A stretch of DNA of 53,359 bases, from positions 1-53,359 of the forward strand of contig DAOWEJ010000115.1 in NCBI GenBank assembly GCA_030638575.1, given 5' to 3'. Source of the stretch: Deltaproteobacteria bacterium. GTDB lineage: Bacteria; Desulfobacterota; Desulfobacteria; Desulfobacterales; JAUWMJ01. Shown piece by piece: positions 7,753-45,133 of this stretch. Below the pieces are notes generated by a model. The model was not told the origin of the DNA, did not search any database, and saw only the letters and a list, made by a program, of their open reading frames with translations. How positions within the stretch are numbered: the stretch's first letter is position 1; every line of letters starts with the position of its first letter. Made by a program: the position numbers and the translations under genes.

Positions 7753-8886
7753 GTTTGAGTGGATTTTTATTATTTCCAGCAACAATTCTACTGTTTTTAT
7801 CATATCATCGAGTTTTACAAATTCACGGACTGTATGCATATCGTGCATACCTGTACCGAGCACGCCTGCTACTATACCCATTTCAAAGAAAATATTGGCG
7901 TCCGCACCACCACCTGTGGTTTTACAGACCATTTTTCTTCCCAGGTTTTCAGCCGCTTGCATAGCTAAAGTTACGACAGGGTGATCTTCTGGAATATCGG
8001 TGCTGGAGAAATCTTTTTCAATAGAAACTTCCAAACGTGGAAGATCATTTTTTGAATAAGTTTTTTTGTAATTATCAACAATATCTTTAAAAGATGATAC
8101 AATATCATTTGTAATTTTACTTAGTTTATTTTTATCATGGCTCCTGACCTCGCCCTTGACTGTTACAAGATGCGGTACAATATTAGTGGCGATCCCTCCT
8201 TCAATAATACCGATATTGCATGTTGTCTCCTTATCGATACGACCTATTTCAAGACGTGCTATCGCTTTGCTTGCCAGCGAGATCGCATTAATGCCTTTTT
8301 CAGGAGCAGCACCTGCATGTGCATCTTTGCCATGAACCGTAAATTCGAGGCGATTAGCAGCTGGAGCCTTAACTACAATACCGTCTGTGTCCGAAGCATC
8401 AAGTGCGTAACCGTACTCTGCAGTTATTAAGCTTGAATCAAAATTCTTTGCCCCTAAAAGCCCCATCTCTTCACATATAGTCAGGACAAGTTCTAAAGGG
8501 CCATATGGCAAATTATTCTCCTGCAACACTCTTAAAGTTTCCAGAATAATAGCTATGGCACTTTTATCATCCGCCCCTAGTATTGTTGTTCCATCACTTT
8601 TAAAAATTCCATCTTCTAATACAACAGTTATCCCTTTACCGGGTTCAACCGTATCCATATGTGCATTCAAAAGCAAAGGCGACGCTGAAGTATTACCGGT
8701 GAACTTTGCTATAAGATTGCCTGTATCACTTCCTGTCTTTTCTCCGGCCCTGTCAATAACCGTTACTGCCCCCATGGATTCAAGTATCTTTTTTAATTCT
8801 TCGGATATGCTCCCTTCCTCCTTGGAAACGCTGTCAATTTCTACTAAGAATTTAAAAGTTTCAGCCAGCCTGTTTTTGTTTATCAT
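7747..8886 (-). CDS. M20 family peptidase, peptidase T-like
   Basis: The predicted cytoplasmic di-zinc aminopeptidase has metal-ligand motifs LLNAHMDTVEPG, GADDKSAIAI, TICEEMGLLGAK and, near the C-terminus, GVLGTGMHDMHT. Its order and spacing match the PepT-like (YqjE) group. I start at ATG 8886, which follows GGAGC and gives 379 residues. A longer frame adds a lysine-rich tail that lies in an iterated TGACAAATGACA word and is not family-like. The substrate is unknown; small peptides are likely. Confidence 0.85.
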   Translation of the reverse strand: MINKNRLAETFKFLVEIDSVSKEEGSISEELKKILESMGAVTVIDRAGEKTGSDTGNLIAKFTGNTSASPLLLNAHMDTVEPGKGITVVLEDGIFKSDGTTILGADDKSAIAIILETLRVLQENNLPYGPLELVLTICEEMGLLGAKNFDSSLITAEYGYALDASDTDGIVVKAPAANRLEFTVHGKDAHAGAAPEKGINAISLASKAIARLEIGRIDKETTCNIGIIEGGIATNIVPHLVTVKGEVRSHDKNKLSKITNDIVSSFKDIVDNYKKTYSKNDLPRLEVSIEKDFSSTDIPEDHPVVTLAMQAAENLGRKMVCKTTGGGADANIFFEMGIVAGVLGTGMHDMHTVREFVKLDDMIKTVELLLEIIKIHSNS

Positions 8887-9373: not shown

Positions 9374-9468
9374 GGAAGTGCGCAGCTTACTGGTGAGGCT
9401 CCCGGACTTCAAATCCGGTGTGGGGCGCTAAAACCGTCCCGGGTGGGTTCGATTCCCATGCACTTCCG
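9374..9468 (+). tRNA. selC: tRNA-Sec (anticodon TCA)
   Basis: The 95-nt RNA has the long 8-bp acceptor stem of bacterial tRNA-Sec (GGAAGTGC with GCACTTCC), a large variable arm and an anticodon loop CTTCAAA with TCA at 9409-9411. CCA is encoded at 9469-9471. It decodes UGA as selenocysteine with SelA, SelB and SelD, none of which is in this window. No selenoprotein gene was recognised here. Confidence 0.95.
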
Positions 9469-15527: not shown

Positions 15528-15564
15528 TTCGCGCTTATAACTGTTTTACAGAATTTATCAGGAG

Positions 15565-15759
15565 GAGACCTTTGAAAAATGGTAATTTTTGTTCGAGTTC
15601 AAGGAAGGCGACCAAATTTTAAATCAGGTTCAACCACAGGAATATATTGAATATTTCGAGGATAGCGCTAAAGCTTCACTGCGTGCCGAAATTTGAGCCT
15701 GACGCAGAAATCGGGCAGATAAGCGCAGACTTCGAAAAGTGCCTTTTTGTAAAGGTCTC
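15565..15759. mobile_element. MITE-like element family A, copy 1, in the purM leader
   Basis: The 195-bp element starts GAGACCTTTGAAAAA and ends TTTTTGTAAAGGTCTC, giving terminal inverted repeats. It is flanked by a direct 5-bp duplication AGGAG (15560-15564 and 15760-15764). The right AGGAG is the purM Shine-Dalgarno, so insertion hit and duplicated that site. The interior shares long blocks with copies at 29683 and 40033, for example TTCAAGGAAGGCGA and GATAAGCGCAGACTTCGAAA. No transposase is encoded. Confidence 0.8.
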
Positions 15760-15770
15760 AGGAGATTATA

Positions 15771-29559: not shown

Positions 29560-29682
29560 AGGTATTAAAACACCGGCCGCTTACCGCATGTTATGTAAAC
29601 CGGATGTTTTAAAATGTTATTGACAACTCCCTCCTGCGTCATTAGTTTCAATTTTTCGTATAAACAAACTCTATAACAAGAA

Positions 29683-29840
29683 GAGACCTTTGAAAAATGC
29701 CCAATTTTGTTCAAGTTCAAGGAAGGCGAAAATTTTAACCGGAGGAATATATTGGATATTTCGAGGATTACAATTTGAGCCTAACACAGAAATTGGACAG
29801 ATAAGCGCAGACTTCGAAAGGGAGTGTTTTGCAAAGGTCT
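29683..29840. mobile_element. MITE-like element family A, copy 2, in the feoA leader
   Basis: The 158-bp element runs from GAGACCTTTGAAAAAT to TTTTGCAAAGGTCTA, so the ends are inverted repeats like copy 1, with one terminal base changed. A direct 5-bp duplication AAGAA flanks it (29678-29682 and 29841-29845). The interior is shorter than copy 1 but keeps TTCAAGGAAGGCGAA, AGGAATATATTG and GATAAGCGCAGACTTCGAAA. It ends 20 nt upstream of the feoA ATG. The 301-nt gap between rlmD and feoA holds no other feature. Confidence 0.78.
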
Positions 29841-39743: not shown

Positions 39744-39777
39744 TATATTACTTTCTCCTCAATTAAAAACTAACATT

Positions 39778-39928
39778 GATGGCGTCGTAAAAAGTCCCAT
39801 CTACTGCGTTGTTGCGGTTTTTCAGGCACTCGGCATACTACATGTATTGCCTCGTCCCTGGAAAACCACTACGCCTTGCATATGGAACTTTCTACTTAGC
39901 CATCGGCGTTACTTTTTACGAGACCATC
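39778..39928. mobile_element. MITE-like element family B, copy 1
   Basis: The 151-bp element starts GATGGCGTCGTAAAAAGT and ends ACTTTTTACGAGACCATC, an 18-bp terminal inverted repeat with two mismatches. It is flanked by AACATT on both sides (39772-39777 and 39929-39934), a likely 6-bp target duplication. A partial extra end (TTTCGTAAAAAG) follows at about 39941. No protein is encoded. It lies immediately upstream of flhG. Confidence 0.75.
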
Positions 39929-40032
39929 AACATTGATAGTTTCGTAAAAAGCAAAGAAACCACGAACCCTAACTTGCCGCCTTATGCGAACAATACTGTT
40001 TTAAGCAATGATCCTGTATATTTTATATATAT

Positions 40033-40201
40033 GAGGCAGTTTCAAAATGTTCAATTTTGTTCGAGATCAAGGAAGGCGATCCGCCTCAGGCGGATTAACC
40101 ACAGGTCCGCCTGAGGCGGATCGAGGATTAAAATTTAAGCCTGACGCAGATATCGGACAGATAAGCGCAGACTTCGAAAGGGAACGTTTTGAAATTGGCT
40201 C
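40033..40201. mobile_element. MITE-like element family A, copy 3 (variant ends)
   Basis: This copy begins GAGGCAGTTTCAAAATGTTC and ends GAACGTTTTGAAATTGGCTC, so the ends pair with each other but differ from copies 1 and 2. The interior keeps ATCAAGGAAGGCGAT and GATAAGCGCAGACTTCGAAA. Two GC-rich palindromes, TCCGCCTCAGGCGGA and TCCGCCTGAGGCGGA, are nested inside at 40080-40094 and 40106-40120. Flanks are AT repeats, so a target duplication cannot be judged. Confidence 0.72.
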
Positions 40202-40686
40202 ATATAACAACATGCATGTTTCATGCCTATATTTACCTGGCCTGCTTAAATATATAACGTCTTTATTTAAAAGGATAAAACATGATTTAAATAATCCACT
40301 TTAATATGTCATAGCGCCAGGCGATGGATACTTGATGTTTAGTGGTAGATTTTTGACGATTAAAATTTGAAGGTTGGAAGTTTAAAAACAAAAAACATAC
40401 AATCTATATTTTCAATGAATTTATAACTATTTAAATAAGATAGAATCGAAGGAAAACTGAGACTGAAAAAAAGTCAATTTTATACCGGGAAAATTCGTAA
40501 AGAAGTGCCGGGAAGATAGGAGATAAGGTTGTCCGAAGTCGTTAGGTCAGTAAAAAATCATTTGAAGCGTCAATTTTTTGACAACTGTCGGCAATCATTT
40601 CTTGCAAGTTTTCCATTAATTATCTCAAGCTTTTCATTAAGTTGCCGATATGGGTTGTTAAGGTGTGTCAATAAATTGGTGGGGAA
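40202..40686. other. Gene-free AT-rich stretch
   Basis: No gene or RNA was recognised between the family A copy and the response-regulator stub. Short open frames on both strands near 40529-40776 have no family-like text. The DNA may be decayed coding sequence belonging to the stub that follows. Confidence 0.4.
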
Positions 40687-40728
40687 ATGGATAAAATTCT
40701 TGTTGTTGATGATGAAGTAGAGGTATGA
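40687..40728 (+). pseudogene. 5' stub of a response-regulator receiver gene
   Basis: The ATG at 40687 opens MDKILVVDDEVEV and then a TGA. This is the canonical first strand of a receiver domain with its acidic pair, and it follows GGTGGGGAA as a Shine-Dalgarno. Nothing receiver-like continues in any frame. The 550-bp repeat starts 46 nt later, so the gene was probably cut when that segment arrived or recombined. Confidence 0.6.
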
Positions 40729-40774
40729 TGTCTTGAGCGCTGCGTTTAATCTCTGATTTATAATCAATACTCCC

Positions 40775-41322
40775 AAGATGATCTACCACTATTGTGATCA
40801 TTTTTTGAGAAAAACTACAATTCCGTCTGAAGCTTTACATTATCACCTTCTCTATGGGCGTGATCAACGACAATTAAATTTCCCGTTTTTCCTACCTCTT
40901 AACAAATTAATCTTATTAAAAATACTTGGAAAACCTATCCTTTCTTAAGAACAAATAGAACCTGATGGTCTCGCAAAAATTCAAAAAGACTCTCTCCTTA
41001 TCGAAGATCCCGATCCTGTAAGCGGGGAAATTAGAGGGCCGGGGTCAAATTTCCAGGTTTACCGGCATGTGTGTCCTTTTCGAGTAAAAACATGCATTGG
41101 CAGGCATAAAAATGACAATTAACGGCAAAAAGGTGACGATTTTTCTCCCTTTATAAAAAACCACTTTATTGGCCATATACTATAACTGTTTGATAAATCA
41201 TGTTATTTATATTTTTGCCGTTTTGGCACGAATATTGCGGTAATATTGAAAGTACCTATTATAAACGGCTAAAATTTTTTACTATCTTTAGTACTAAGTT
41301 CTTTGATTTGAAATTTTAATTA
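40775..41322. repeat. Long direct repeat, left copy (about 548 bp)
   Basis: Starts AAGATGATCTACC and ends TTGAAATTTTAATTA. Nearly the same text occurs at 43775-44324 in the same orientation, with scattered substitutions and single-base indels; I estimate above 90 percent identity by eye. It contains no gene-length frame, but near its right end has a strong sigma-54 promoter. The last ~220 bp are better conserved than the first 80. Confidence 0.9.
41224..41239 (+). promoter_or_regulatory. Sigma-54 promoter in left repeat copy
   Basis: TGGCACGAATATTGCG fits the -24/-12 consensus TGGCACG-N4-TTGC exactly at its conserved bases. Transcription would start near 41250 and run rightward into the attC-like hairpin and the 106-residue ORF at 41629. 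Confidence 0.8.
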
Positions 41323-41562
41323 TTTTATCGATACAAACGTTAATAATTATTTTATCTTGGCATGAGTTTCGAAAAGCATATATAGCCTCAGTAGGCATCA
41401 CAATACCTCAGCGTATTAGCAAAGGGTATGGGCCGCAAAAAGCACAGTTAACGTCCTATTTCACCAAGGCGAAGGTAAAGGCTACCTTCCAAAGGGCGGC
41501 AGTGAATCAGAGGCACAAAAATATGAATCTAATTTTTTACAATTACTGCGAGACACAGTCAA

Positions 41563-41598
41563 CCGCTAACGTTTTGGCTCCAGCCGAAACGTTAGCGG
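41563..41598. repeat. attC-like hairpin upstream of the 106-aa ORF
   Basis: CCGCTAACGTTTTGGCT (41563-41579) and AGCCGAAACGTTAGCGG (41582-41598) pair over 17 bp with one G-T wobble. The outer ends CGCTAAC and GTTAGCG resemble the RYYYAAC and GTTRRRY core sites of integron attC, though two R positions are not purines. A plain hairpin or terminator is the alternative. Confidence 0.5.
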
Positions 41599-41628
41599 TA
41601 AAAAATAAAAATTTTGAATTAAAATATT

Positions 41629-41949
41629 TTGAATAAAATTGCGGAATGGCAGCAACAATTTCTGGTAGGCCTATCAATTTTTATAGGGTTATGTATTTTT
41701 TCTCGGCAAGTATATAAATGGTTAAAAACCGGGGTATGGATTGAAATGCCCATTTCTATTCCTATCAATTATATCGGGGTAGACCTTTCTCCTATCTACT
41801 CACCAGAAGATTGGAAAGGTTTTGCCAAAGTTACCAGGTGGATTTGTGCGTGGCCTTCATCCGTTGGTCTTCCAATTATTACATGGGTTATTACTGCTAT
41901 TATAAAATCAATAATCCAAACAAAAGATAGTTCGTCCGAAATAGAGTAA
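41629..41949 (+). CDS. Small membrane protein, cassette-like
   Basis: The 106-residue protein has a first membrane span at about 10-30 (FLVGLSIFIGLCIF) and a second at about 74-93 (SVGLPIITWVITAIIKSI), with a Trp-rich loop between. The start is TTG and no Shine-Dalgarno is seen. It fills the space between two attC-like sites (31 nt after the first, 9 nt before the second), the layout of an integron cassette. I do not recognise its family. Confidence 0.55.
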   Translation: MNKIAEWQQQFLVGLSIFIGLCIFSRQVYKWLKTGVWIEMPISIPINYIGVDLSPIYSPEDWKGFAKVTRWICAWPSSVGLPIITWVITAIIKSIIQTKDSSSEIE

Positions 41950-41957
41950 AAATAAAA

Positions 41958-42020
41958 ACCGCTAACAAATCACTACTCGTGCCCAGCTAAATCCGAATCG
42001 CTGGGATTCCGCTTAACGGT
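41958..42020. repeat. attC-like site downstream of the 106-aa ORF
   Basis: It begins ACCGCTAAC, the exact complement of the GTTAGCGGT that ends the hairpin on the other side of the ORF, and ends CTTAACGGT. Inside, CCCAGC (41982-41987) pairs with GCTGGG (42000-42005). The order fits R'', L'', L', R' of a degenerate attC, but the final core has CTT for GTT. Confidence 0.45.
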
Positions 42021-42049
42021 GGAAGAAATTTGATATTGTTACCCAGTGG

Positions 42050-42888
42050 GTGACCGCACATAAAGAAAGCTATGCACCTTTCTGCAGGGCTTGCCCTGGC
42101 ATTAGGGAGAATGGATTGGGCAGTAAACCTCATTGCGGAGCTTGCTCCGGCGCTGAGTAGCTATATCCGCGGAAGTACCACATGAGCAAAGTTTAGCCAG
42201 CAGCTCATTAGCGAAGTCCACGGGCCGAACCGGCAACGGGAGTCCGAAGCTGGATGGAGCGAGGTAGCAGGCTCTGTATTGAGCACCGAAAAATGTATAA
42301 TTGTGGTCCATTAGGATAAGTTTCGCACAGCGGAATGAAAGCCGACGCGGTGCAGTGTGTCGGAAGGCAGCAAGCTTGTATGCGCTATGGCGAGTGTACA
42401 AGTCACCACCGGGGTCTGAGACCAGGGCATGTTCTCAAAGGGGTAGCTCGGGAACTGGGGAGATCCGGATGTGGCCTTGCCCGCAAGGGGAAGGTATCAG
42501 GGGCGGATAGCAAAGAGTGAACAAACCTGAGATAGGCATTCGGAAGTCTTAGTAGATCATAGTACCGATGTTCAGGAACGTAAACCTGGACGGGAAGGTG
42601 GGGAAGTGAAGCCCAAGCGACCCATTGCAGGGAAGGAGAACCAGGTGTGACGTTTTACTGGGAGGAACTACAGGAGGCACTCAGAGGCCACCAACTCACC
42701 AAATTCCAGTAAAGTGCATAGGGTGGCAAATGTCACTCATGGGTAGCATAGTCATGCGCCATACGGGGTGTCGCCTGTGTGGTTTCTAAACCGGTAAAAA
42801 GGTTTAGAACCGAAGAACCGTATGAGGGAAATCTTCACGTACGGGACTGTGGGGAGGGCGCAGAGTAACCGGTGCCTTTACCCGGAAC
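42050..42888 (+). mobile_element. Group II intron without reverse transcriptase, probably decayed
   Basis: Domain V is at 42815-42848, beginning GAACCGTATGAGGGAAATCT and continuing with TTCACGTACGGGAC. Domain VI follows, with GGGGAGGGCGC facing GTGCCTTTACCC and a probable branch A at 42880. The region before it is GC-rich and structured, with GGAAGTCTTAGTAGATCATA near 42541, typical of intron text next to the maturase start. No maturase or RT frame remains; domain IV is only a few hundred bases. The domain V triad is AAC instead of AGC and the stem base has two mismatches, so splicing is doubtful. The 5' end (GTGACCGCAC at 42050) is a guess. Confidence 0.75.
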
Positions 42889-43060
42889 TGGATGGCTATT
42901 CCGCTGCGCTCCATAGCCACCAGTGAGCTTGAGCGATTCGGCGGAAGAATCGAATTGATGACGCAATTTCTCATTAAATTGTATAGAAAACAAAAAAGTA
43001 TTCAAGCATAATTGGCAGGGTTGGTTTGATATATCAAAAACAAAAAAAGAGGAGAAAATT

Positions 43061-43585
43061 ATGAAAAGACAAATTACTGCAATTGTAATGTTGGCATTAA
43101 TGGCATTTGCTGGGAATGCATTTGCCTATGGTGATGTCACACCTTCTGAAGCTGCTGACATGGTAGTAAATGATGGTGCCTTCATCCTGGATGTACGAAC
43201 CCCAGAGGAGTGGAATTGGGTCGGGCATCCCGGTGAAAACAAACTTTGCGAGGGGGCTGAGTTGCAGGGTTATGTGCTGAACGTTGCTTATAATGTTTAT
43301 CATAAGGGACACAGCAAAGGCGATGTTTTGATTGTCAACACTCAGTTTGTTAAGGATGTCAAGATACTTCTTAACAAAGATGTTGATATTATTACTATGT
43401 GTCGGTCTGGCAAACGTTCGGTTATGGCAGCAAAGGCTCTTGAGGCTGCTGGTTTTACAAATGTTTATAATATGCTGACTGGTTTTGAAGGTGGAAAGGA
43501 TGATGCCGGCTACCGCACCATAAATGGTTGGAAGGTAGATGGCCTGCCTTACAATTATTCAGGTGTTGGTGACTACAAAGATTAA
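43061..43585 (+). CDS. Exported rhodanese-domain protein
   Basis: The 174-residue protein has a signal peptide (about 1-22) ending AFA before Tyr23. A rhodanese domain follows: GAFILDVRTPEEWNWVGHPG near 39 and the active-site loop IITMCRSGKRSVMAAKALEA with Cys near 130. Periplasmic single-domain rhodaneses bind or move sulfane sulfur, which would suit a sulfur-cycling anaerobe. GAGGAG precedes the ATG and a terminator follows. It is the only ordinary gene between the two long repeats. Confidence 0.88.
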   Translation: MKRQITAIVMLALMAFAGNAFAYGDVTPSEAADMVVNDGAFILDVRTPEEWNWVGHPGENKLCEGAELQGYVLNVAYNVYHKGHSKGDVLIVNTQFVKDVKILLNKDVDIITMCRSGKRSVMAAKALEAAGFTNVYNMLTGFEGGKDDAGYRTINGWKVDGLPYNYSGVGDYKD

Positions 43586-43617
43586 AATACATACAATCAT
43601 TCCAATCCTGTCAACTC

Positions 43618-43646
43618 AAAGGGGCTGCTTAGAGCGTAGCCCCTTT
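43618..43646 (+). terminator. Terminator of the rhodanese gene
   Basis: AAAGGGGCT (43618-43626) pairs with AGCCCCTTT (43638-43646), 33 nt after the stop codon. The following T tract is interrupted (ACTACCTTTTAATT), so strength is uncertain. Confidence 0.65.
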
Positions 43647-43774
43647 ACTACCTTTTAATTGCCTGAGTTTAAGGTGATAGTTGATACATATATAGAATAA
43701 GCACAAGCAGGGTGGGCCGTCCTTGCTGCCTTTTCCAAATCAAACGGTGGGAGCGCCGAACCAGTCGCTACCTA

Positions 43775-44324
43775 AGATGATCTACCTCTATTGTTTGTAA
43801 TCATTCTTTAAGAAAAACTACAATTCCGTCTGAAGCATTACATTATCACTTTCTCCAGGGGTGTTATCAACGACAATTAAATTTCCCGTTTTTCCTGCCT
43901 CTTAACAAATTAATCTGATTAAAAAATACTTGGAAAACCCATCCTTTCTTAAGAACAAATAGAACCTGATGGTCTCGCAAAAATTCAAAAAAACCCTCTC
44001 CTTATCGAAGATCCTGATCCTGTAAGCGGGGAAAGTAGAGGGCCAGGTCAAGTTGCCAGGTTTGCCGGCATGTGTGTCCTTTTCGAGTAAAAACATGCAT
44101 TGGCAGTCATAAAAATGACAATTAACGCCAAAAAGGTGACGATTTTTCTCCCTTTATAAAAAACCACTTTATTGGCCATATACTATAACTGTTTGATAAA
44201 TCATGTTATTTATATTTTTGCCGTTTTGGCACGAAAATTGCGTTAATATTGAAAGTACCTATTATAAACGGCTAAATTTTTTACTATCTTTAGTACTACG
44301 TTCTTTGATTTGAAATTTTAATTA
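43775..44324. repeat. Long direct repeat, right copy (about 550 bp)
   Basis: Starts AAGATGATCTACC and ends TTGAAATTTTAATTA, as in the copy at 40775-41322. The spacing between the two starts is exactly 3000 nt. Differences are scattered, for example GCACGAATATTGCGGT against GCACGAAAATTGCGTT at the promoter. It lies downstream of the rhodanese terminator and upstream of the sensor operon at 44663. Confidence 0.9.
44227..44242 (+). promoter_or_regulatory. Sigma-54 promoter in right repeat copy
   Basis: TGGCACGAAAATTGCG matches the -24/-12 consensus. Transcription would start near 44254 and run about 410 nt before the ATG at 44663, through a long palindrome at 44455-44620. Confidence 0.8.
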
Positions 44325-44454
44325 AAAGTCTTCTCCTGTGTACCTGCATTTTTTCAGACAAGGGCCAAAATAATAAATAAAATGAGAAATGCACCGTGCG
44401 AGAATATCGGCATTTTTAAAAGCCGGATTTTTATTTTGAGACAGGCTAATCCTT

Positions 44455-44662: not shown

Positions 44663-45133
44663 ATGGATATTTTATCGGGTGATATTTCCGGTTTAATTTT
44701 CAGATACATAACCAGAGACTCCCTTGGTAAATTTTCACTTGATGGTAAGATTTTAAGTGTACTTGCGGAGTTGGACGGAAGAAAAAGCCTTGCTATGATT
44801 GCCAATACAAAAGGGCTGAGCATGGACAAAATGAGAAAAATCATTTATGAGATGCTCCAACTTGATCTGATCGAGCCTGTAGAAGATGCCGGTTTAATGC
44901 TTGATAAGGAATTTTTTGATTATCTTAACGATCAGTTATCACTTGCTGTCGGTCCCATAGCCGGACTATTGATAAAAGATACAGTTAACAGCATAGGCTG
45001 CAATTTAACTCAATTTCCAAAAGATATGGCGGCAGGACTTGTATCAAATCTCGCAAGTCAGATTGATGATAAGGAAAAGCGCTCTGAGTTTCAAAGGAGT
45101 GTTTTTAATAAAATTGCCCAAAAAGGAGGTTAA
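44663..45133 (+). CDS. Small regulatory protein, winged-helix plus DUF8082-like C-terminus
   Basis: The 156-residue protein has no signal or membrane span. Residues about 10-72 have a winged-helix pattern: LDGKILSVLAELDGRKSLAM, then the helix MRKIIYEMLQLDLI. The C-terminal part (about 85-150: LAVGPIAGLLIKDTVNSIG, then FPKDMAAGLVSNLASQI and FQRSV) resembles a small domain (DUF8082-like) at the end of motility or polarity regulators; that link is from memory and tentative. AGAGG precedes the ATG. The heme-sensor gene begins 5 nt downstream, so the two probably work together. Confidence 0.6.
   Translation: MDILSGDISGLIFRYITRDSLGKFSLDGKILSVLAELDGRKSLAMIANTKGLSMDKMRKIIYEMLQLDLIEPVEDAGLMLDKEFFDYLNDQLSLAVGPIAGLLIKDTVNSIGCNLTQFPKDMAAGLVSNLASQIDDKEKRSEFQRSVFNKIAQKGG

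Follow-up and report, generated by a model that had tools for sequence, protein, structure and literature searches.

The window analysed here, a 53,359-nt stretch from a Deltaproteobacteria bacterium of the order Desulfobacterales (assembly GCA_030638575.1, contig DAOWEJ010000115.1), contains a direct repeat of about 550 bp, the copies of which are located on the forward strand at 40772-41322 (left copy) and 43771-44324 (right copy). Alignment of the two copies revealed 523 of 549 aligned bases to be identical, with 7 gap positions, and the match is far beyond chance (E = 0.0 in a self-BLAST and E = 7e-244 in a separate search). The initial annotation of this DNA, made from the letters alone, had reported two such same-orientation copies, and these were found to be real; the edges and spacing given there were near-exact, the true left edge lying 3 nt outside the noted 40775 and the start-to-start distance being 2999 nt. 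The statement that the repeat encodes no protein was borne out for the repeat as a whole, with a 32-residue ParA-like relic overlapping the left end only. Missed at that stage was the nature of the repeat, which appears to be the promoter and upstream region of a small RNA (sRNA) gene; the left copy would comprise these two parts with the RNA body missing, and the right copy, truncated at its left end, runs on at its right end into the sRNA.

The genome to which the window belongs is a draft, metagenome-like assembly of 2.31 Mb in 124 contigs with 76% completeness, where the second copy could conceivably be the mis-joined contig end of a single locus. However, the copies differ at 26 positions in addition to the 7 gap positions, and they have distinct flanks within one contig, so that an artefact of this kind is most improbable. 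Full-length copies of the repeat in this draft genome were restricted to these two, and none was found in 57 relatives.

The 3' part of the repeat, of approximately 215 nt, constitutes a complete sigma-54 promoter whose elements, a pair of enhancer dyads, an IHF-like site and the -24/-12 boxes, keep a fixed spacing. In the left copy, the dyads are found at 41113-41127 (dyad 1) and 41134-41148 (dyad 2), with degenerate right halves, followed by the IHF-like site at 41183-41195 (TAACTGTTTGATA) and the -24/-12 boxes at 41224-41238 (TGGCACGAATATTGC). The corresponding positions in the right copy are 44116-44151 for the dyads (starting at 44116 and 44137), 44186-44198 for the IHF-like site and 44227-44241 for the boxes (TGGCACGAAAATTGC), all elements of both copies being on the forward strand. 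The boxes of either copy conform with TGGCAC-N5-TTGC, the dyads are 21-22 nt apart, and the dyad, with TGACGATAATTGTCA as the candidate activator-binding sequence, is positioned 90 nt before the -24 box. When the copies are compared, the 214-nt promoter part has 4 mismatches and the upstream part of 337 nt has 22 (p = 0.012), which is weak evidence that the promoter may be constrained or subject to conversion. The 3' part matched one place each in another contig of the same genome (C57, 76%) and in two congeners (G002, 70%; G001, 66%), and the 5' part showed little similarity elsewhere.

At these places (C57, G001:C49 and G002:C263), the promoter module lies upstream of a conserved RNA of about 102 nt, which is intergenic and lies beside the same enoyl-CoA hydratase gene; at G001:C49, the RNA is present twice in tandem. 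In the window, the right copy runs on, from 44325, into the sRNA stretch, GGCTTCTC...GTGCGTGCATCTTTTCAG...GAGAATAACGGCATT..GGGAAGCC, whereas the left one does not. For homology searches, two covariance models were used, R1 built from five sequences and R2 from 50 diverse sequences. The intact RNA copy of the own genome is located on the reverse strand at C57:21588-21704 and scored 83.4 bits with R2; a third match of R1 in this genome (contig C109, 24 bits) was gone with R2 and was rejected.

With model R1, 80 of 291 genomes sampled from the order Desulfobacterales were found to contain the RNA element. With model R2, one closed genome was seen to carry 14 copies and another 8, and a sample of 395 genomes from across the phylum had 15 with the RNA. 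Scanning one genome each of 84,980 species with the exact core pattern yielded 63 stretches, whose record titles were Desulfobacterales, Desulfobacteraceae, Desulfosarcina, Candidatus Desulfatibia or broader delta-/proteobacterial genomes; none of the 63 was clearly outside the Desulfobacterales lineage by title. No family of Rfam 15 was found for the RNA in the window or in 20 loci; relaxed thresholds likewise gave none, and neither did gathering thresholds in 17 homologous loci.

The RNA core is predicted to fold into one long interrupted hairpin with the stems P1, P2, P2b and P3. In the 50-sequence alignment, 88.5% of cells pair, compared to 82.6% upon shuffling and 43-55% with the partners slid. 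Both partners change in 12 pairs, and 0 of 500 shuffles reached the covariation score. Covariation is seen in P1 and P3, while P2 is almost invariant and the internal loop above it has an invariant GCAUC on one of its sides. Because the core is invariant on both stem strands, a protein- or ligand-binding platform would fit better than a simple antisense seed. Additional conserved-looking stretches beside the sRNA core were noticed at four loci (L153, L154, L181 and L004 7430-7560), namely CTTCAACAC...GACGG upstream and GACTnCAC...GATGAC downstream, which suggests extra RNA domains. As a separate observation, a MITE-like (miniature inverted-repeat transposable element-like) insertion of about 233 bp with long inverted ends (CGTCCGGGGAAACGCCC...) is present at L004 ~8130-8365 in the intergenic region before an intact sRNA.

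With a structured RNA and a conserved internal loop, the element could alternatively be a cis-acting, riboswitch-like leader of downstream genes instead of an sRNA gene, and the right window copy does point at an open reading frame (ORF) at 44663-45133, about 240 nt downstream. Across the family, however, the downstream gene was co-oriented in only 23 of 49 loci and opposed in 26, and this lack of a consistent orientation implies that the element is not a leader. Moreover, a terminator-like hairpin with a T run intervenes within 250 nt downstream in 70% of the loci (3% of shuffles), the next gene is convergent at the syntenic C57 locus, and a downstream family in common was not found; a leader function is, thus, highly improbable. 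Most of the RNA loci (43 of 50) lie outside ORFs of at least 90 aa. Among the genes neighbouring the RNA, no dominant family emerged, FliW and flagellar rod domains occurring three times each in 82 neighbour proteins, which is too few for a conclusion. Neighbouring gene families common to RNA loci across genomes were seen at L028, L031, L045, L048, L049, L050 and L103. Taken together, the RNA appears to represent a multicopy, free-standing and so far uncatalogued sRNA family, frequent in a single order of sulfate reducers.

The promoter features of the window recur at other members of the family. The strict sigma-54 -24/-12 pattern was present upstream of the RNA in 14 of 50 loci versus 0.25% of shuffled upstream sequences, and downstream in 0 of 50. 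Of the 14 sigma-54-positive loci, 11 have a dyad that matches TGAC-N7-GTCA in 6 or more of the 8 bases and lies 89-91 nt upstream of the -24 box; a second dyad is often located another 21-22 nt upstream. The 90 nt before the -24 box were scanned in 16 sequences, including both window copies, for the IHF-like motif YAANNNNTTGATW; with at most one mismatch, it was detected in 9 of them versus 14% of shuffles, always at -41 or -42. The composite pattern of dyad and sigma-54 boxes had 65 sites in 194 genomes, compared to 1 for the reversed pattern, and about 20 of the 65 are by position directly upstream of the RNA. The composite promoter was also observed before a small ORF at L164, L168 and L172-L175; its product begins like MLDKAADNHNFDFNIGHLVKS and may belong, as a protein, to the same regulon.

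In the window itself, the RNA at 44325-44426 (forward strand) is a degraded family member, scoring 105.9 bits with R1 and 34.3 bits with R2, the latter to be compared with the 83.4 bits of the intact C57 copy. It is changed at columns 20, 26 and 103, which are invariant in 50 homologues, and at columns 113 and 115, which are nearly so; some of the changes break P1 and P2 without compensation. The left copy ends at 41322, before the RNA. As judged from these features, the left copy lost its RNA and the RNA of the right copy is decaying, with both promoters nearly intact. The good preservation of the promoters, which keep all elements and carry only the 4 mismatches mentioned above, would also be in line with a new function of the right-copy RNA and with capture of the left promoter to drive a 106-aa ORF at 41629-41949 (forward strand). 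Against the former stand the uncompensated changes in P1 and P2 and those in invariant columns; as for the latter, the ORF has no Pfam match and is not supported as a conserved gene. We regard this combination as unlikely.

The DNA around and between the copies was found to contain several relics. Outside the left copy, the severed start of a response-regulator gene (forward strand, 40687-40728) comprises 13 codons, MDKILVVDDEVEV, followed by a stop; it had been recognised in the initial annotation, and the intact orthologue, MVRILVVDDEIAV..., is found in G001:C23 (L206 1361-1720), where it is convergent with a ParA-like gene, likewise intact, and near a PBP gene. The ParA-like C-terminal relic of 32 residues straddles the left copy's left edge on the reverse strand (40715-40810; tblastn 62.5% identity, E 3.6e-10) and has a DNA match to G001:C23. 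The interval content was likewise as previously described, with the 106-aa ORF, a group II intron relic and a rhodanese-domain protein. The intron relic (41964-42904, forward strand) is devoid of a reverse-transcriptase ORF; it contains an Rfam RF02005 match at 42172-42424 (92 bits) and, at 42813-42904, a group II-like 3' end (RF00029) below the gathering score, and the interval matches a BuS5 intron in pieces, with the ltrA part of that intron missing here. The rhodanese-domain protein (43061-43585, forward strand; PF00581, E 1.7e-11) has a hydrophobic, signal-peptide-like N-terminus.

Three further candidates in this segment were not substantiated. An attC identity was not established for a 38-nt attC-like inverted repeat at 41562-41599 (strand undefined), nor for the stretch before the intron, which occurs twice in a BuS5 plasmid without clear attC boxes. 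The region after the left copy (41323-41625), riboswitch-like by eye and G+C-richer at 41380-41560, matched nothing in Rfam, and a full-length relative was not found in 40 genomes. Elsewhere in the window, dispersed repeats of about 150-190 bp are located at 39771-39963 and 40017-40205, with related ones at 15556-15760 and 29674-29840 and dozens of copies in the two congeners, and a selenocysteine tRNA gene is located at 9374-9467.

The initial annotation had considered both a composite mobile unit and a duplication. If the copies were the ends of a composite unit moving the 2.45-kb segment, the foreign-looking interior, with its intron relic and attC-like inverted repeat, would be explained, as would the absence of the segment from G002:C12. 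Such a unit is nonetheless very unlikely. The repeat has no transposase ORF and no other full copies in its own genome or the 57 relatives, its conserved part is a promoter that occurs singly at an unrelated locus, and the flanking DNA consists of asymmetric remnants of a single ancestral locus, not of target-site duplications; a plasmid search with the 3.5-kb unit matched only the intron-like part. An old static duplication had been proposed there for the case that every relative has the two copies; this is not what was observed, since they are missing from both congeners.

The duplication reading, in contrast, gained support from the edges of the copies. In G002 (contig C12), only 1.47 kb separate flhG from the PBP gene, and the whole segment is absent. 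In the window, the ParA relic crosses the left copy's left edge, and the RNA crosses the right edge of the right copy. The left copy is, thus, ancestral on its left side and the right copy on its right side, from which it follows, as far as can be read from the DNA, that duplication or insertion added one repeat copy together with 2448 bp. A circle that integrated through recombination at the repeat would most simply explain this geometry; duplication with subsequent insertion and deletion is conceivable too.

We conclude, with a probability of roughly 85%, that the repeat is the duplicated upstream region of a sigma-54-dependent sRNA gene, the left copy being without RNA and the right RNA decaying. 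The DNA itself shows the repeat, its promoter grammar, the RNA family, the decay and the duplication polarity. From the arrangement of the elements, we infer the following course for transcription, activator, RNA function and duplication route. An NtrC-type activator would bind the dyads and IHF would bend the promoter DNA, upon which the sigma-54 polymerase would transcribe an sRNA with the ~102-nt core, usually followed by an intrinsic terminator. As sigma-54 promoters require an activator, the RNAs should be turned on by a signal via one or a few enhancer-binding proteins. The sRNA gene would have come to sit in the ParA-like/response-regulator locus, after which one repeat copy and 2.45 kb of accessory DNA would have been added, for instance by a circle integrating at the repeat.

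Several points weigh against this conclusion. Only 14 of the 50 RNA loci passed the strict sigma-54 pattern and 21 of 50 reached the 99th percentile of shuffles, so that variant or distant promoters may serve some of the members. The 5' ~330 nt of the repeat are only weakly homologous to the intact locus (32 nt). With a draft genome of 76% completeness, additional repeat copies may have escaped the assembly, and there is a slight chance that the repeat is mis-assembled. Finally, no match to Hfq (PF17209) or CsrA (PF02599) was obtained in 8 genomes, 5 of which are of good quality, while control genomes matched; a profile search could miss small divergent proteins. This result argues against the standard sRNA routes. 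A tentative and rather doubtful extension would be that the RNAs represent a new activator- and sigma-54-controlled riboregulator class without Hfq or CsrA, in which an invariant internal-loop platform binds a protein or small molecule and up to 14 paralogues per genome belong to one regulon, the orphan left promoter having been captured to drive the accessory ORF.

The analysis adds a widespread, multicopy, structured and apparently uncatalogued RNA family to the Desulfobacterales, a major group of sulfate reducers. Its complete promoter grammar of paired dyads, IHF-like site and sigma-54 boxes should make the whole regulon predictable, and the invariant RNA core offers a direct handle for a partner search. 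Should Hfq and CsrA indeed be missing, these bacteria would need another way of deploying regulatory RNAs. The window would furthermore illustrate sRNA gene duplication, loss of the RNA and promoter relics left behind. In the literature searched, which did not extend to subscription papers, sigma-54 sRNAs were found elsewhere and nothing on this RNA family.

Among known systems, the Qrr sRNAs of Vibrio act with Hfq. They are sigma-54-dependent and activated by LuxO and resemble the present family in having paralogous sRNA genes, sigma-54 promoters and upstream activator sites (PMC10162802). The family differs from Qrr in that there was no Rfam match to Qrr, the phylum is another one and the Hfq profile was not found in the 8 genomes. 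Pxr of Myxococcus xanthus shares a promoter resemblance and has paralogues in some species, but it is adjacent to nla19 and composed of three stem-loops (PMC5568312), whereas the RNA core described here is one long interrupted hairpin at varied loci; the two were set apart by description. In Desulfovibrio vulgaris, likewise a sulfate reducer, four non-coding RNAs are under the control of sigma-54 and enhancer-binding proteins (PMC4641369). Unlike the multicopy family, these are single genes under different activators, again a distinction by description, and no Desulfovibrio title was among the 63 exact-pattern matches. Given the sigma-54-dependent sRNA precedents in D. vulgaris, myxobacteria and Vibrio, the RNA family, itself apparently uncatalogued, would belong to a kind of system that is known.

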